The position numbers and the translations under genes are program-made. From Bacteroidota bacterium (GTDB lineage: Bacteria > Bacteroidota > Bacteroidia > Bacteroidales > UBA10428), in the NCBI GenBank assembly GCA_003252385.1, contig QKEH01000162.1, positions 1-39,870 of the forward strand: DNA of 39,870 nucleotides, read 5' to 3'. Below, one piece after another: positions 25,486-37,384 of this stretch (position 1 is its first letter; every line of letters starts with the position of its first letter). Under the pieces are notes generated by a model. That model saw nothing but the letters and a program-made list of their open reading frames with translations. It was not told the origin of the DNA and did no database searches.

Positions 25486-26163
25486 CTATACCGACCAGTC
25501 GATGGGTTCCAGCCCCTGCTGCTTCAGCAACCTATTGGTTTTTGAAAAGTGCCCACACCCAAAGAAACCATTATATGCCGACAAGGGCGAAGGATGTGCC
25601 GCCTTCAGCACATGGTGTTTGGTGGTATCAATAAGGCTTTCTTTGGCCTGGGCATAGCGCCCCCAAAGCAGGAAAACCACTCCGCTGCGTTCCTTCGAAA
25701 TCTTCCGGATCACAGCATCGGTAAACTGTTCCCAACCTCTTTTCTGGTGCGACCCTGCTGTATGCGCCCGCACCGTAAGCGTGGCATTAAGAAGCAGCAC
25801 ACCTTGGGCAGCCCACTTACCAAGATTGCCATGAGCCGGAATGGGCACCTGCAAGTCGCGATGAATCTCTTTAAAAATGTTCACCAGCGAAGGGGGTTGT
25901 TTTATGCCCTCGGGTACCGAAAAACATAATCCGTGAGCCTGACCCGGCCCGTGGTAGGGATCCTGTCCGAGAATGACCACTTTAACTGCTTCGAACGGAG
26001 TATGTTCGAAAGCGTTAAAGATCAGATGGCCGGGAGGATAAACTGCATGCTTGCGTTTTTCTTCTATCAAAAATGTTTTCAGGGCACTGAAATAGGGTGC
26101 TTCAAACTCGCTATGCAGAGCCTCCTTCCAACTGGTTTCGAGGGTTGGGTTAACGGGGTTCAT
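25486..26163 (-). CDS. ung: uracil-DNA glycosylase, family 1
   Basis: Removes uracil from DNA in base excision repair. The 225-residue protein has the family 1 signature GQDPYHG with catalytic D68, the uracil-recognising N126 in LLLNATLTV, and the HPSPLSA loop with H190. All active residues are intact and length is normal. The ATG overlaps the stop of the upstream Na/Pi cotransporter by 4 bp, so it is translated as part of that transcript. Convergent with the surface repeat gene; in the 157 bp between them I see no terminator. Confidence 0.97.
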
Positions 26164-28244
26164 TCGTTCTTCCTTTTGCGGCCACCGGTACGCCGATAAA
26201 TGAGGATGCGCGATGTGGTAGTGGCGTGATTGCTGATTACGCGAAGCAGGGTGATGATTTCCAAATGCGTTTTACTGCTCGATTGGCTTTGTTCATCGTG
26301 CTCCCGCAGGCGAAGGTAGTGCAGGCGCTCGAATTCAAAGAAATCGTCGCGAAATCGTTTGTACCGTGATTTCAGTTTACGAGCCGCAGCGGGGTCGTTG
26401 GTTTCGTACACTTTAAGTGCCTGAATCAAAATTTTAAGCGTATTCTCATGGTAGGCTTTCAATTCGGCACGTCCCTCATCCGAGAACTCGTAATTATTGG
26501 CACACCAACGGTTTGCTTTGTCGTATAACTGCCCCGAAACCACATCGGCAATTTGTTCAAACTCCCGTATGGCATTCATCAGAATAAACGCTTCCTCGGC
26601 AAGTTCTGGAGCAATATCGTTCTGACTGAGTTTTAGCAGGTAATCCACCATCTGATCTCGCAGGTAGTTAATCTCTTCCTCGGAACGCTCCATCCCTTTC
26701 AGGGCGGCCGGATTTTTATCGAGAAACGGATGTAGAATTTTTTCGGTCATGAAATACACCTTCTTCATCATGCGCACCAGTTCCAGGCGGGCGCCATCGA
26801 GCGCAAATGCCGGTGTAATTAGCAAGCCCTCATTGATGTATCTGAGCGTGAATGCCTTTTCGGGTTCCTCGCGGTACGGAAACATCCACTGTATAAAGCG
26901 GGCATAGGCATTGGTAAACGGAAGGAAGATACCACACAATATGAGGTTGTACACGGTATGGGCATTTGCTATTTGCCGGGGAGTGGCCACGGAATGTAGC
27001 ATATTGCTTGTATCGGAAAGTGCCGATACATGAAATATCAGCTTGTAGAACCAGGGTAGCAGTGCCAAAACCAGAATAGCTCCAATGATCTTAAAAACCG
27101 TATGCGACAGTGCCACCTGCTTGGCTTCGCGGCTACCCTTCAACGCCGCCAGTATAGCGGTAATAGAGGTTCCCACGTTAGCCCCAATAAGGAGTGGAAT
27201 AGCAACATTCAGGCTTAACAAACCCTGCATGGACAAAATAATCAGTATTCCGATAAATGCACTACTGCTCTGTATGAGTGCGGTAAGCAGGGCTCCGACC
27301 AGAATGCCCAAAGCCGGATTTTGCAAGTTGGTAATCGCTTTCAGAAAGGGTTCGTAGCTTCGTAACGGATACATCGACTCGGACATGATGTGCATTCCGA
27401 AAAACAGAATACCAAATCCCAACAAGGCCTTGCCCAACTCTTTAGCCGCCATCTTAGGCATAAAATATTGCACCGACAGCCCTAACGCAATAAAAAGAAG
27501 CGAATAATCGGTAAGCTTAAAGGCAATAATTTGTGCGGTGATAGTGGTTCCAATGGCGGCTCCCAACATCACTCCAATGGTTTGCCGGAAACGCATCAAA
27601 CGGGAGTTCACAAAACTTACCAACATCACATTGGTAGCGCTACTGCTCTGTATAACCATGGTTATGAGGGCTCCCAGGCTGAGAGCCACAAACCGGTTGT
27701 GGGTAAGTTTGGCCAAAACAGTGCGCATGCGTTCACCGGCTGAATTTTGCATGCCCTCGCTCATCATACCCATGCCCAGCAGAAACAAGCCCAAGCCTCC
27801 CAATAAACCGCTAATCAGGAAGAAAACCCAATGGGCATCGCGCACATGGACCATACATAACTCTGGAGCCAACTGGCCTTGGGAAGGAACGCTTACCACA
27901 AAAGCATAATCGCCTTTCTTATAGGCCTCACCCAGCGACAGATAAGCCATACCCGCCGAATCGGTAACGACTGTTGCCATTTCGGGGAACGCCAGGGCCT
28001 TTTCCATATCCGAATTTTCGGGGGTAAACCGAACGAGCACCCCCTCAACAGGCTGCTGCAGGGAATCCATACACCGCACCGCAAGCGGATCACGAAAAGT
28101 TTTGCCTTCGCGGGCATATTGTTCATGCCCCGATACCACTTCCATGCGGCACATCCGGTTGCCTTCACAGCCCGGAGCTCCCGAAGCAGTCTGAACCAGG
28201 AAGATTACATACCCTAAAAAAACGAATATCCATTTCACCGTCAC
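26160..28244 (-). CDS. Na/Pi cotransporter family protein with N-terminal Ig-like domain
   Basis: Sodium-coupled phosphate carrier of 694 residues. Order: signal peptide (1-22), an Ig-like domain of bacterial Big-1 style (about 50-120; PVEGVLVRF, then [11 protein letters not shown], then GDYAFVVSV), a membrane domain from about 137 with the paired motifs QSSSAT (199-204) and QSSSAF (325-330) and GANVGTSIT (354-362), and a PhoU-like helical C-terminus (about 490-690). Four cysteines (26, 32, 58, 130) flank the Ig-like part and may form disulfides. There is no ATG: GTG 28244 or, better for the signal peptide, GTG 28238. ung follows with a 4 bp overlap. Confidence 0.9.
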
Positions 28245-28411: not shown

Positions 28412-31657
<3,246 letters not shown>

Positions 31658-32175: not shown

Positions 32176-34941
32176 ATGTCGAAGCGAATTGTATTATTTG
32201 GAGTGGTGCTGTTACTAGCCCTGGTGGTTATAATTGGTTTCATTGTTCTGCAGAAAAAAACAGGTTCCTCATCCAACCCGGTAAAGGCCATCCCCACCGA
32301 TGCGTGTGTGGTGGTTCAGATCAACGATTTCAGAAGTTTCCGGATGAACCTGTTGGAAGAAAACCGGGTTATACAGGATGCAATGGTATTGAAGAATATC
32401 CGTCAGCTTAAGGATCAGCTTGCATTTTTGGACTCCCTGGCGCTTCAACACGCCCGGCTTGGAAAACTGCTTTTTAACAGCCGGCATCTGATTTCTGCCC
32501 ACCTCATCGGAGGACGTAAACTGGACTATTTATTCATCAGTCAACCCATCGAAAGTATCGGACTCAAACCCATACTTGAAGTACTATCGGAGCTGGTCGA
32601 ACCGCATATTCTTTGCAGCGAAAAAAAGTACGAAGGCACCTCCATCTATATCTTCAGAATTAACGAGGGCACCACCTACTATTTCTCCGAACTGGAAGGA
32701 AATATTCTCATCAGCTCATCGGTTATACTGATTGAGAATGCGTTACGCCAATACAGCATGTCGCAATCGCTGCTTAACGATAGCGACTTTGCCGAGATGC
32801 TGGCAACCGCCGGAAAAAGTAAGGATGCCAATGTATTTGTCAATCTGAAGCGCTTTCCGGGCTTGCTTTCGGTTTTGGCTAGTGACGCCTTTGCCCAAAA
32901 ACTAAGAAGTTACGATAACTTTGGCCACTGGCTCGAACTGGATCTAAATGCCCGTGCCGATCATGTGATGCTGAATGGCTTTGTTTCGGTAGCCAACCAA
33001 CAGCACACCTTCCAGGAAATTTTCCGCGACAACGCCCCGATCACCCTATCCGCTGACATGATCCTCCCAGCTTTCGTTTCGTCCTTTTTTACTTTTGGAG
33101 CCGAAGACCTCCTGCAACTGCACCAAGGCTTTCAGAACTACCTGGGGGCATTGGGCAAAAAAGAAGGACGTATGAATCAGATTCAGGCTTTCGATCAAAA
33201 ATACGGGTTCCGTCTCGATGAACTTTTTCTGGCCCTACTCGACAACGAAATTACTCTGGCGCACGGATCCATACCGGGCGATAACCTAGTCAGCACAACA
33301 TTTGTAGTATTGAAATGTAAAAGTGGGCATCAGGCGCAACAAAGTGTGGGGGAACTCAGCCGAAAGGTGGCAACCAAACAGGGTATTAATCCGGCCTCTT
33401 TACAACACCGTTATGAGGTGGATCAGGATACAAAGTTCCTAATTGGTGAACTCCCGCTTAAGGATGTTACCGGTTTGGTATTTGGCAATCTGTTCTCGAT
33501 GGACTCGAAAAGTTTTTACGCCGTGTTGGGCAATTACCTGATCCTATCCGATTCGAAAAAAGGACTTGAAGAATTCCTGTACAGCAATGTACTCAGCAAA
33601 ACCCTCACTACCAGCGAAGCCTATAAGACTTTTAAGAGCAACCTTGCCGAAAAGAGCTATTTCCTGTTCTATGGCAACCTGAGCAAAGCGGCTCCTGCCT
33701 TCTCCGGCTATCTGGATCCCCAAACCTATGCCGGTTGGGAACAAAACTTCGACCTGTTTCAGAAAATACAACCCTTGGGTATGCAAATTACCGAAGTCAG
33801 TCATCGGAATTACATCAACCTGTTAACCTGGTATCTGGAGGACACGCAGAGTAAACCTCAAACCGTATGGGAAAGCTTGCTGGACACCACCTTTAGTATG
33901 AAACCCCAACTGGTGGAAAACCACTATACCAAACAAAACGAAATATTTCTGCAGGACGATGGGAATACCATCTACCTCATTAACAAAGCCGGTCGCATCT
34001 TGTGGAAACAAAAAATTGCCGAGCCCATCAACTCCAATATATACCAGATTGATTACTACAGGAACGGCAAGCTGCAACTGCTTTTCAGCACCGAAAACTA
34101 CCTGCACCTGCTGGACCGAAACGGAAATTACATCGAGCGCTACCCGGTGCGTCTGCGCGAAAAAGCCACCGCAGGCCTGGCCTTGTTCGATTACGAGAAC
34201 AACGGGAACTATCGCATCTTTATTCCCTGTGCCGACAAAAAATTGTACGCCTACACTAAGGATGGCAGCCTGATCAGTGGCTGGCAGTTCCCGGGCAGCG
34301 AATACCCCGTGCACCAAACACCGGAACATTTTCAGGTCGACCAAAAGGATTTTATTGTCTTTGCCGACCGCTACCAGGCCTATATACTCGACCGGCAGGG
34401 CAATGTAAGGGTAGCGGTTAAGGAGTTGGTTTATAAGTCGGAGCACAACTCTTTTCTGCTCGACCATCAGGGAACCCTGGAACGTTCGCAACTGGTTACC
34501 ACCGATACCAGCGGAAATGTAGTGCGTATCAGTTTCAAAGGCGAGGTATCGCGTAAAAATCTGGGAACGTTTACATCGCAGCATTTCTTCGATTTTAAAG
34601 ATGTGGACGCCGATGGGCAGAAAGATTATATCTTCCTCGATGAAAACCGGCTCAGTGTGTACCGCCAGGATAAAACAGAAATTCTTAACTTTAGTCTGCC
34701 GAACGTCTCGGGGCAGGAACCCATCTACTTTAACTTCTCGGCCAACGACCGTAAAATAGGGCTGGTAGATACCCGCGATCAGAAGATTTACCTGCTGAAT
34801 TCCGATGGAAAACTCTATAAAGGCTTTCCGCTGGAAGGCACCACACTCTTCAGCATTGGCTATCTCGACAGCCCCGGAGGACGGTTTAACCTGCTGGTAG
34901 GCGGACGCAACAACTTTTTATACAACTACTCCGTACATTAG
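32176..34941 (+). CDS. inner-membrane anchored DUF3352-like protein with C-terminal beta-propeller
   Basis: A 921-residue protein, first of four co-directional genes. It has one N-terminal membrane anchor (about 6-26), short cytoplasmic tail and a large periplasmic part. Residues about 36-560 resemble DUF3352-type proteins (AIPTDACVVVQINDFRS opening, repeated alpha/beta blocks). Residues about 575-921 have propeller-like blades, each ending with a (D/G)G-type turn and a GFP or GWQFP motif (LLDRNGNYIERYP, YTKDGSLISGWQFP, LNSDGKLYKGFP), plus a calcium-like DVDADG loop (809-814). No enzyme motif is seen. It lies 20 bp before a lipoprotein gene. The function is unknown; a scaffold or sensor bridging the membranes is my inference. 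Confidence 0.75.
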   Translation: MSKRIVLFGVVLLLALVVIIGFIVLQKKTGSSSNPVKAIPTDACVVVQINDFRSFRMNLLEENRVIQDAMVLKNIRQLKDQLAFLDSLALQHARLGKLLFNSRHLISAHLIGGRKLDYLFISQPIESIGLKPILEVLSELVEPHILCSEKKYEGTSIYIFRINEGTTYYFSELEGNILISSSVILIENALRQYSMSQSLLNDSDFAEMLATAGKSKDANVFVNLKRFPGLLSVLASDAFAQKLRSYDNFGHWLELDLNARADHVMLNGFVSVANQQHTFQEIFRDNAPITLSADMILPAFVSSFFTFGAEDLLQLHQGFQNYLGALGKKEGRMNQIQAFDQKYGFRLDELFLALLDNEITLAHGSIPGDNLVSTTFVVLKCKSGHQAQQSVGELSRKVATKQGINPASLQHRYEVDQDTKFLIGELPLKDVTGLVFGNLFSMDSKSFYAVLGNYLILSDSKKGLEEFLYSNVLSKTLTTSEAYKTFKSNLAEKSYFLFYGNLSKAAPAFSGYLDPQTYAGWEQNFDLFQKIQPLGMQITEVSHRNYINLLTWYLEDTQSKPQTVWESLLDTTFSMKPQLVENHYTKQNEIFLQDDGNTIYLINKAGRILWKQKIAEPINSNIYQIDYYRNGKLQLLFSTENYLHLLDRNGNYIERYPVRLREKATAGLALFDYENNGNYRIFIPCADKKLYAYTKDGSLISGWQFPGSEYPVHQTPEHFQVDQKDFIVFADRYQAYILDRQGNVRVAVKELVYKSEHNSFLLDHQGTLERSQLVTTDTSGNVVRISFKGEVSRKNLGTFTSQHFFDFKDVDADGQKDYIFLDENRLSVYRQDKTEILNFSLPNVSGQEPIYFNFSANDRKIGLVDTRDQKIYLLNSDGKLYKGFPLEGTTLFSIGYLDSPGGRFNLLVGGRNNFLYNYSVH

Positions 34942-34961
34942 GCGGAGCAAACGGTACAGCA

Positions 34962-35651
34962 ATGAAACAACCACATCTTTTATTTCTTCTTCTCGCCGTA
35001 AGCCTGCTGGCCTGCAAGAAGGAAACCATTCAAATGGACAACCTGTCCACCGATGTAAAAGTACCTCACCAAATTGCCATACCGCTGTTGCAAACTTCCA
35101 TGGTATTCGAGGAAGTTGCCGGGCGCCAGGCTGATTCCATAATTGAGTATCGGGGAGACTCCATCCTGCTGTTCTTCCCGGCCGATTTTTCGTTACGCGA
35201 CACCATGGAAATCCCCAAAACCGGACAAAATTTGCGTTTTGAACACTTTTACCTCTACCACGGAATTCAAAATATGTTCCCTATTGGTCTGGATATCGAT
35301 TTGGTGTTGCGTAACGATGATCTGAATGTCAATTTGGATACTTTTTCACTCAAAGGAAAGGACGCCGATGTGGACGTTCCGTTTATCGAACCTGCTCCGG
35401 TTGGCTCCAATAACCTGGTTGATGAATCGGCAGTTCACGAAAAAGAAGGGTACCTGGCACTGGACAGCACCTTTTTTAACCAGTACTATGGCGATGCCAC
35501 CCACCTGATTATTGTCTTCACCTTGCAGCAAACTGCCGATACCCTCCGGATTTTGGATCATTATAATATGGACATTCGCCTTTCCATTGATGCCTCCGGC
35601 TATTACATCAGAGAAGAAACGGCTGACAGCACCCAAACAACTACCCCATGA
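34962..35651 (+). CDS. predicted lipoprotein of unknown function
   Basis: A 229-residue lipoprotein: the signal MKQPHLLFLLLAVSLLACKK has a good lipobox (LLAC) with lipidated C18. The mature part is beta-rich (MEIPKTGQNLRFEHFYLY, IQNMFPIGLDIDLVLRNDDL) with few helices and no known motif. Its 3' end overlaps the next gene by 4 bp (ATGA), so translation is coupled. A basic pair KK follows the cysteine; the target membrane cannot be deduced from that. By position it should act with the barrel and the propeller protein. Confidence 0.8.
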   Translation: MKQPHLLFLLLAVSLLACKKETIQMDNLSTDVKVPHQIAIPLLQTSMVFEEVAGRQADSIIEYRGDSILLFFPADFSLRDTMEIPKTGQNLRFEHFYLYHGIQNMFPIGLDIDLVLRNDDLNVNLDTFSLKGKDADVDVPFIEPAPVGSNNLVDESAVHEKEGYLALDSTFFNQYYGDATHLIIVFTLQQTADTLRILDHYNMDIRLSIDASGYYIREETADSTQTTTP

Positions 35652-37111
35652 CAGAACGCGCGAAACGCTATTTGGCCATCATGGCCGGCATGCTGCTTGC
35701 ATTAGGCTCCTATGCACAAAGTAATACCATGTACTACATGACGGGTCAGCCCCAGGCTTACTATTTGAATCCGGCATCGCAACCCTATTGTGCCTTTTTC
35801 CTGAACATACCGCTTACTCCGGTATTCCTGGAAGGATCGAACAATTCCATTGGGTTTACCGACCTGGTATGGAACGACCCCAACTCCGATGCGGTCATCC
35901 ATCCCCTGCATCCCAATGCCTCACTGGACGATTTCTTTGCACAGATGGTGGATAAAAATACCGTGGGTCTAAGTTTCGATGCCACTCCCCTATCGTTTGG
36001 ATTTCGGGCAAAGGACATGTACTTTACCTTCGATGCCGGCCTGCACACCCGGGCCAGTATCAGCTACCCTACCGATTTGCTGGATTTTGTTATCCGCGGA
36101 AATGAGAATGGCCGCTTGTACGACTTTAGCGGACTGGGCTTCCACATGAGTTCCTATATGGAATATGCCCTGGGCATTTCGCGGAACTTCTACGATATGT
36201 TCACCGTAGGCGTTCGCCCCAAACTGCTGGTTGGGCTGGCGCATGTGGCGTCCGACGATAACCATATTCAACTCTACACATCGAACCGTGAGTGGCGCAT
36301 GAATTCGGAAATTGAATTGCAGATGGCTCTTGCCGGCATGAATATTCCTACCAAGGAGAACGGAACCTTCGATTTAAGCGGTAAGTTTACCTTCGATTCG
36401 ACAGCAAGTATTGGCCAGATACTCACCGCCAATAAGGGCTTTGGAATTGACCTGGGAACCCACCTGAAACCTACCGAATCGCTCACCCTTTCTTTTAGCG
36501 CAGTGGACATTGGTTTTATTAAATGGCAGAAATATACACAAAGCACCACCCTAACCGGAAATTTTAATTTCGAAGGCGTGGTGTATCACCCGGGCGATAC
36601 CACCAATATTATGCAAAGCTTTACGGATAGTTTGAAGTCGGAATTTAAAACCACCGGGTCGGAAGCTGCCTTCACTACCACATTGCCTACCAAATTATTT
36701 CTGGGTGGATCGTATGCGCTACTCCCTTCGGTAGATGCCGGCATACTGGCTCGTATGGATTTACCCTACATGAACGACCCGCTGAAAACCAACATTATGC
36801 TCCATGCCAACTGGCATCCTTCGCGGGCCCTGGCCTTTGCCTTTAACTACAGCCCTTTTAAAAACAGCGGTTCCACCCTGGGCGTTGGAGTCTTCACGCG
36901 AATTCTATTCCTAAGTTCCTACCTGTATTTCGATTACTTCCCCATGGAATACAACTCCTACAAATTTGGCAATCTGCCGGGAATACCTTTCCCTGCCAAT
37001 GGAGTCAAGCAGTTTAACATCCGGTTCGGAACCAGTATTATGATTGGCAACAACCAAATGAAAAAGTTAAAGAAAGATAAACCGATGTACTATTCGGATG
37101 AGAATGAGTAA
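35648..37111 (+). CDS. DUF5723-type outer-membrane protein
   Basis: A 487-residue protein with a signal peptide (to about residue 24, LALGSYAQ) and a large beta-barrel. It opens MYYMTGQPQAYYLNPASQPY, a pattern I associate with DUF5723 family members, which also have the FLNIPLTPVFLEGSNNS step and regular aromatic strands. The last part (FNIRFGTSIMIGNNQM) is basic and short of a barrel-closing Phe; it ends in a hydrophilic tail. DUF5723 proteins have no known function but resemble FadL-like or PorP-like barrels. It is coupled to the lipoprotein and is followed 33 bp later by the DUF4834 gene. Confidence 0.82.
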   Translation: MTERAKRYLAIMAGMLLALGSYAQSNTMYYMTGQPQAYYLNPASQPYCAFFLNIPLTPVFLEGSNNSIGFTDLVWNDPNSDAVIHPLHPNASLDDFFAQMVDKNTVGLSFDATPLSFGFRAKDMYFTFDAGLHTRASISYPTDLLDFVIRGNENGRLYDFSGLGFHMSSYMEYALGISRNFYDMFTVGVRPKLLVGLAHVASDDNHIQLYTSNREWRMNSEIELQMALAGMNIPTKENGTFDLSGKFTFDSTASIGQILTANKGFGIDLGTHLKPTESLTLSFSAVDIGFIKWQKYTQSTTLTGNFNFEGVVYHPGDTTNIMQSFTDSLKSEFKTTGSEAAFTTTLPTKLFLGGSYALLPSVDAGILARMDLPYMNDPLKTNIMLHANWHPSRALAFAFNYSPFKNSGSTLGVGVFTRILFLSSYLYFDYFPMEYNSYKFGNLPGIPFPANGVKQFNIRFGTSIMIGNNQMKKLKKDKPMYYSDENE

Positions 37112-37144
37112 CTTTATCCCCTCATCTTTTGAATTACGTGCACT

Positions 37145-37384
37145 ATGTTTATTTTCAGGTTAATCCTGCTTTTTATCTTGTTCTACCTGCTGCTCCGTTT
37201 TCTGGGCCGTTTGCTTTTCAGTTTCACGTTTAGCAGACAACATCGCACCAGCAATCCATACCAGCACTACCACACATCGTCAAAAAAGGAGGGCGAGGTT
37301 TCAGTAAGCCGTCAGGCCGATCCTCAGACCAAACGTTTTTCTAAAAACGACGGAGAATACATCCGGTTTGAGGAGGTGGAATAA
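37145..37384 (+). CDS. small DUF4834-type membrane protein
   Basis: A 79-residue protein with one membrane segment (about 3-30: IFRLILLFILFYLLLRFLGRLL) and a basic, polar tail that ends with the family-like KNDGEYIRFEEVE. Such short proteins occur in many Bacteroidota and have no assigned function. ATG 37145 is the only reasonable start. It is the last gene of the operon; no terminator is visible after it. Confidence 0.8.
   Translation: MFIFRLILLFILFYLLLRFLGRLLFSFTFSRQHRTSNPYQHYHTSSKKEGEVSVSRQADPQTKRFSKNDGEYIRFEEVE

Follow-up and report, generated by a model that had tools for sequence, protein, structure and literature searches.

A putative FadL-like barrel and a length-variable lipoprotein as the core of a four-gene envelope locus in Bacteroidales

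We analyze a four-gene envelope locus carried by a 39,870-nucleotide contig of a Bacteroidota bacterium of the order Bacteroidales (GenBank assembly GCA_003252385.1, contig QKEH01000162.1, positions 1 to 39,870 of the forward strand; hereafter the window, and its genome G000). The four open reading frames (ORFs), designated P1 to P4 in gene order, encode an anchored protein with a propeller half (P1), a lipoprotein (P2), a DUF5723 protein (P3) and a small DUF4834 membrane protein (P4). They do not constitute one indivisible unit: the core of the locus is the middle pair, P2 and P3, with P1 and P4 as looser neighbours. Our reading narrows to this pair, that is, to a FadL-like barrel and a lipoprotein whose tail and C-terminal domain are constant and whose middle part varies strongly in length. 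We favour the view, at a probability of roughly 0.65, that P2 and P3 form a physical complex at the cell surface, an outer-membrane assembly of lipoprotein and barrel built like BamG-BamH.

The pair is widespread in one bacterial order, the Bacteroidales, and no description of it was found in a full-text search of open-licence papers (without preprints or supplements), which returned none naming DUF5723, DUF3352, DUF4834 or DUF6427 and, for DUF4621, unrelated plant work only. The analysis joins a lipoprotein family, a domain of unknown function whose crystal structure (4h3w) has lacked an explanation and a barrel family likewise known only as a domain of unknown function into one testable unit, and the combination of a conserved tail with freely length-varying cargo provides a handle on how surface lipoproteins are held at, or brought to, the surface.

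Conservation of the gene pair

Gene neighbourhoods were read in 48 loci, comprising the window, seven related loci and 40 from P1-matching genomes chosen for spread and not at random. Of the 41 DUF5723 contexts read, 39 have a gene for a family lipoprotein immediately upstream (21 of 21 P1-linked loci, 17 of 18 other loci and one of two plasmid records), the two genes being separated by -23 to +34 base pairs (bp). DUF5723 is present in 169 of 198 Bacteroidales genomes. Among the matches listed, which amount to 147 lipoprotein places, after exclusion of second fragments of the same gene, and 150 DUF5723 places, a lipoprotein found with the A2 profile stands upstream of 103 of the 150 DUF5723 genes; 14 of the remaining 47 were inspected, and 13 of these did have an upstream lipoprotein. 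The window genome carries a second such pair (G000:C1, locus L089), composed of a lipoprotein of 215 amino acids (aa) and a DUF5723 protein of 473 aa, with no P1 beside it.

P1 was found in 134 of the 198 Bacteroidales genomes at E 1e-5, of which 124 were used, the other 10 having a listed match to the N-terminal part only or not being among the matches listed; phylum-wide, its profile matches 45 of 198 genomes at E 1e-10, many of them in part only. It precedes the pair in at least 52 of the 124 genomes, with a lipoprotein within 7 kilobases (kb) or a DUF5723 gene within 9 kb downstream, and in 21 of the 48 loci read it is followed by DUF5723, in a few cases with intervening ORFs. The complete order P1, lipoprotein, DUF5723, DUF4834 occurs in seven of the 48 loci, or eight if a weak DUF4834 match in L060 is counted. 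Its repeated appearance across further Bacteroidales genomes shows that the arrangement is not a chance one. DUF4834 genes over the Pfam cut-off are found near P1 (up to 12.5 kb) in 13 of the 38 genomes that have both.

Relations of the lipoprotein and the barrel

By its lipobox, its shared C-terminal domain and its position directly upstream of DUF5723, P2 is assigned to the DUF5723-paired lipoprotein family. A profile from which P2 and its nearest relative, the 220-aa lipoprotein of L033, were left out still matches them, with E 5e-27 for L033 and E 1.1e-14 for P2. In Pfam P2 falls into no family and gave only two chance-level matches (E 0.13 and E 0.21). Family lipoproteins at the P1 locus usually measure 542-740 aa, with 385 aa in L078, and those upstream of DUF5723 range from 199 to 1279 aa overall. 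In the alignment P2 and L033 are without the middle region, the lipobox end and the C-terminal domain being retained. In hhalign profile comparisons the main long set reaches 99.5% with the gut-type set (99.4% without three weakly supported rows), 99.4% with the short set and 96.7% with P2 plus L033, while barrel controls do not exceed 3.3%. L087 and L088, which the A2-based profile had missed, are both recovered (5.8e-38 and 2.8e-31) by a gut-type profile from which they had been left out. In a tree of 39 DUF5723 proteins the window groups with L033, away from the other group with short lipoproteins (L089, L091-L095), a separation that points to repeated origins of the short forms.

The family is mostly without a Pfam model and is, by profile, remotely related to DUF4621 (PF15414; structure 4h3w). 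The only PDB match of the family profile is 4h3w, weak when taken alone (E 0.021) and nearly identical to the DUF4621 lipoprotein encoded upstream of DUF5723 in Parabacteroides distasonis. DUF4621-like genes occupy nine places in eight of the 198 genomes, and at eight of these places a DUF5723 gene, identified by profile, comes next; at the ninth there follows a second such lipoprotein, which itself precedes DUF5723. P2 has no DUF4621 match up to E 1, none was found in G000 up to E 0.001, and a 1001-aa lipoprotein had no match in the PDB sequence search. P2 is thus only remotely related to DUF4621, by way of the long forms. A tandem pair of family lipoproteins (L139 and L145, both from genome G023) was seen preceding a single DUF5723 gene.

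Family tails resemble one another behind the lipid cysteine. Among 43 of them, position +3 holds K or D in 32 and position +4 an acidic D or E in 26; Y or F occupies +6 in 22, D or N occupies +7 in 26, and +8 is L in 16. At least two acidic residues at +2 to +7 are found in 33 of 41 family members and in 9 of 52 other predicted lipoproteins from the same loci, a contrast that the p-value of 1e-9 overstates, since the control set includes proteins other than lipoproteins, among them three DUF5723 barrels, and the family members are not independent. The 41 are those of the 43 that pass a looser lipobox rule, applied alike to family and controls; it replaced a strict rule, which only six of the 43 family members, ten controls (four of them acidic) and one P1 protein had passed. 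The surface export signal of Capnocytophaga, given in passages of PMC5080379 as C-X-K-(D/E)2-X, is present in its strict form X-K-(D/E)2 in three of the 43. Taken as a family, the lipid-anchored partner of the barrel is probably displayed at the cell surface, as its tails would indicate.

P3 matches DUF5723 (PF18990) with 253 bits over a cut-off of 26.8 (E 9e-75), along profile positions 1-371 of 376. All three long DUF5723 proteins that were scanned end in thrombospondin type 3 repeats (TSP_3) and an OmpA domain, a fusion in keeping with a barrel in the outer membrane whose end reaches into the periplasm. Compared by hhalign with FadL profiles, DUF5723 scores 65.0, 94.5, 84.1, 68.7 and 71.6%, according to the set, and 95.1% with FadL and BamG-like proteins combined; reversed-profile controls remain at or below 0.7%, and the positive control, FadL against PorV, yields 96.5-97.0%. 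An NP[ASG] motif near the N-terminus is shared by 34 of 39 DUF5723 and 12 of 15 BamG-like proteins, as against 17 of 346 other ORFs. The PDB sequence search returned no match for DUF5723.

The looser neighbours and the layout of the locus

The coordinates of the four genes and of the features located in them are collected in Table 1. A sequence-only reading of the window had described four genes in one direction, and the ORF coordinates confirm both this and the gaps it gave, 20 bp between P1 and P2, -4 bp between P2 and P3 and 33 bp between P3 and P4. Its labels for P2, P3 and P4 were likewise borne out, P2 having an LLAC lipobox and P3 and P4 exceeding the Pfam cut-offs for DUF5723 and DUF4834, the latter (PF16118) with 29.3 bits over 27.8. 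No NCBIfam model matched any of the four proteins above its cut-off. A promoter scan gave 15 sites, against 8.9 in shuffles, a terminator scan nine, against 6.3 in shuffles, and an Rfam scan no match; neither these nor a scan for repeats proved informative.

Table 1. Location of the genes and protein features in the window
Feature	Position	Strand	Description
P1	32176..34941	+	921 aa; N-terminal hydrophobic anchor, DUF3352, C-terminal beta-propeller
P1 hydrophobic anchor	32188..32253	+	about residues 5-26, judged by eye
P1 DUF3352 match	32623..33360	+	residues 150-395, Pfam
P1 beta-propeller half	33853..34938	+	about residues 560-920; DVDADG at residues 809-814
P2	34962..35651	+	229 aa lipoprotein, assigned as internally shortened member of the DUF5723-paired lipoprotein family
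P2 lipobox LLAC	35004..35015	+	residues 15-18, from sequence
P2 C-terminal domain common to long family members	35175..35615	+	residues 72-218; hhalign 96.7% (P2 plus L033)
P3	35648..37111	+	487 aa, DUF5723, putative outer-membrane barrel, FadL-like
P3 NPA motif	35768..35776	+	residues 41-43; NP[ASG] common near the N-terminus of DUF5723 and BamG-like proteins
P4	37145..37384	+	79 aa, DUF4834; small membrane protein with loose linkage to the other genes

The first gene of the locus encodes a composite protein. P1 matches DUF3352 (PF11832) with 35.6 bits over a cut-off of 26.8, along profile positions 156-395 of 536, and 18 of 33 relatives match the same family at E 0.01. Propeller models remain below their Pfam cut-offs (Beta-prop_ACSF4, 35.7 against 133; FG-GAP_3, 25.7 against 26.9). 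The earlier description of P1 as propeller-like holds for the C-terminal half, but the N-terminal half is DUF3352; of the details then put forward, the DVDADG loop is present, and the repeated G(F/W)P turn was overstated, one copy being exact (GFP, residue 883) and one loose (GWQFP, residue 702). A fold search with a P1 model of mean pLDDT 59 was dominated by the propeller half, with designed propellers ranked at the top. Against the BamB structure 7ttc_B the propeller half reaches Z 13.3, tied with others, and many unrelated or designed propellers score the same or higher, so that the likeness to BamB carries nothing about function.

In most relatives read the N-terminus of P1 is a hydrophobic anchor, and here the protein is most likely periplasmic and membrane-anchored. 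In five of 49 homologous ORFs, however, a lipobox and an acid-rich tail replace the anchor under the looser lipobox rule (L034, L035, L037, L038 and L039, four of them with titles naming goat or sheep gut samples); L039 is the only P1 that passes the strict rule as well. To judge from these N-termini, P1 of those five Bacteroidales loci may reside in the outer membrane, even at the surface, and the membrane anchor originally attributed to P1 gives way to a lipobox in these relatives. Several Bacteroidales genomes also encode, beside the propeller form, a paralogue of the N-terminal half of P1 of approximately 735 aa (L096:3197-5407 and L097:3566-5767); that of L096, the only one scanned, combines DUF3352 with MORN repeats.

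In another common setting P1 comes after a gene string that, judged by eye, consists of purD, a gene for a membrane protein and rnhB; complete or partial, this string recurs near P1 in L064-L067, L072, L074-L076 and L079. The membrane protein has about 333 aa and, in L066, no Pfam match; L076 combines this setting with that of the lipoprotein and DUF5723. Elsewhere, a Bacteroides finegoldii record labelled as a plasmid (NZ_OY725904.1) looks chromosomal, since it carries genes for gyrB, rpsT, sufD and ribonuclease HII. The genes on the other side of P1 in the window are ordinary neighbours on the - strand, a GH2 beta-galactosidase (28412-31654) and a Na/Pi cotransporter with PhoU domains (26160-28244).

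Competing explanations and known systems

Observed are the pairing of the two genes, the relations of both families, a lipobox, tails rich in acidic residues across the lipoprotein family, fusions to OmpA and a facultative linkage of P1 and P4; to these the account that we favour adds what we infer about physical contact, surface exposure, the mode of docking and any role of P1. P3 would be a FadL-like barrel in the outer membrane, on which the short conserved tail of P2 behind the lipid cysteine would dock, and the C-terminal domain of P2 would sit on the outer face of the barrel, as BamH does on BamG. Relatives would have a longer surface part owing to additional domains inserted after the tail and before the C-terminal domain, domains that the window lineage would have lost. 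P1 and P4 would act as facultative partners, and P1 may help to deliver, assemble or hold the pair.

Several results weigh against this account. The putative unity of the lipoprotein family is chained through the long forms: hhalign relates short to gut-type lipoproteins at only 10.6-26.1%, gut-type lipoproteins to P2 plus L033 at only 19.5-48.7%, and the main set to DUF4621 alone, represented by two rows, at 76.0%. The P2 tail, KKETIQ, has a single acidic residue at +2 to +7, which makes the surface exposure of P2 less sure than that of its family. The DUF5723 gene of L098 has no neighbouring lipoprotein, and L084 is cut at a contig end; 44 of the 147 lipoprotein places listed have no listed DUF5723 within 3.5 kb downstream, a count that may include contig ends, and in Bacteroides finegoldii (L135, NZ_OY725904.1) DUF5723 comes after a ribonuclease HII gene, with no P1 or listed lipoprotein between them. 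The likeness of DUF5723 to FadL is partial, covering 109-200 aligned columns and depending on the set; no Pfam FadL match exceeds its cut-off, Toluene_X (PF03349) having matched one DUF5723 protein below the cut-off only, and the structure model of P3, made from three sequences, is unusable (mean pLDDT 35). As regards P1, up to 72 of the 124 genes have no listed pair downstream, 41 of the genomes concerned having a lipoprotein elsewhere; P1 and P4 are adjacent without the pair in L041, L053 and L063, and the pair occurs without P1. The co-occurrence of P1 and lipoprotein (both in 96 genomes, P1 only in 28, lipoprotein only in 31, neither in 43) counts in favour of the account, but the test of it ignores shared ancestry.

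A rival proposal, which follows the sequence-only reading, is that all four proteins make up one trans-envelope machine. P1 would lie in the inner membrane with its propeller as a periplasmic bridge, P2 and P3 would occupy the outer membrane, and P4 would be a small membrane subunit. The complete gene order in seven of 48 loci, the presence of P1 in front of the pair in at least 52 of 124 genomes and that of P4 near P1 in 13 of 38 speak for such a machine. Yet the P1 genes without a listed downstream pair speak against it, and so do the five P1 proteins whose lipobox and acid-rich tail would place them in the outer membrane. Further contrary evidence comes from G042, a 94% complete genome from the window genome's own family: P1 is there directly followed by P4 (DUF4834), and the searches found no copy of the lipoprotein or of DUF5723. 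We hold a four-protein machine to be unlikely. What stands of the proposal is the conserved, tightly linked pair with P1 often in front; the four-protein complex is unproven and the genes are often scattered, which the proposal itself had named as evidence against it.

A possible, if doubtful, alternative retains the pair and dispenses with P1, which would merely share its transcript: the barrel would import or export a hydrophobic small molecule in the manner of FadL, with the lipoprotein as a lid. This agrees with the FadL likeness of DUF5723, with the frequent location of P1 away from the pair and with the movement of hydrophobic molecules by canonical FadL proteins, as described in passages of PMC12611786. 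Among the neighbour clusters identified, however, no recurrent metabolic gene family stands beside the pair, a lipoprotein length that ranges over 199-1279 aa is easier to reconcile with display or scaffolding than with a single conserved ligand, and BamG illustrates that a FadL-like barrel is able to act as a scaffold. That P3 and P2 are BamG and BamH themselves, as extra subunits of the Bacteroidota BAM complex, we consider hardly credible, even though the parts are of the same kinds, a FadL-like barrel and a lipoprotein with a conserved tail. A FadL-family protein with the spread expected of BamG (57 of 60 Bacteroidales genomes) is encoded by a separate gene of the window genome (G000:C23:76413-77861), identified as a BamG candidate by that spread and its FadL family and not by a locus tag, and DUF5723 compares to this BamG-like family at only 3.8% by hhalign. 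Moreover, sections of PMC12578637 that assign BamG to FadL/Toluene_X report that its deletion was not achieved, whereas DUF5723 was not found in G042 or in 28 more of the 198 genomes. By these comparisons P3 is not BamG, as it falls outside the near-universal single-copy FadL-like family. A relative of the BamG candidate had no PDB sequence match, the presence of BAM structures in the PDB copy searched being unsettled.

A further idea, distinctly improbable on our estimate, is that DUF5723 barrels are dedicated translocators, each surfacing its own neighbouring lipoprotein of 199-1279 aa, which P1, either periplasmic or lipid-anchored, would hand over. Its grade, that of the four-protein machine and the figure given for the surface complex belong to overlapping readings. 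Passages of PMC12578637 take the data there as a hint that the flipping of surface lipoproteins does not depend on the BAM dome; if true, the translocator idea would provide a Bacteroidota counterpart of Slam and a way into the unsolved flipping step.

Returning to the surface complex of P2 and P3, its components resemble several known systems in part. DUF4621, with structure 4h3w, is like the family of P2 in lying upstream of DUF5723 in Parabacteroides and in having a C-terminal part related to the family profile (76.0%, and 99.4-99.5% for wider gut sets), but it differs in its restriction to eight of 198 genomes, and P2 has no Pfam match and is weakly related to the gut sets (19.5-48.7%). 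BamB shares the propeller fold of the C-terminal half of P1, which unlike BamB has here no lipobox and includes a DUF3352 half. The type IX secretion proteins PorV, a FadL homologue according to passages of PMC12578637, and PorP/SprF, of which SprF has a barrel of 14 strands (part of PMC12611786), are like P3 outer-membrane partner barrels, although the partner here is a lipoprotein; in hhalign neither matches DUF5723 well, with 2.5-3.4% for PorV and 16.2-20.8% for PorP, from small sets with at least one PorP ORF that is wrong by eye (L103).

Another parallel comes from the BAM complex of Bacteroidota. There, as described in parts of PMC12611786 and PMC12578637, BamG, a barrel of the FadL family, keeps hold of the surface lipoprotein BamH by its lipidated tail. 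The pair described here would operate similarly, as a FadL-like barrel with a lipoprotein that has a conserved lipidated N-terminus; it differs in the adjacency of the P2 and P3 family genes, in a lipoprotein length that varies about 6-fold and in the 3.8% between DUF5723 and BamG-like proteins. By description, not by sequence, it can also be likened to the S-layer lipoprotein Bt1927 and the barrel Bt1926, predicted to be 8-stranded (passages of PMC12578637), a surface lipoprotein and a partner barrel from one locus. The abstract of PMC12578637 counts assemblies of this kind, in which a barrel partners a surface lipoprotein, as a hallmark of the Bacteroidota.

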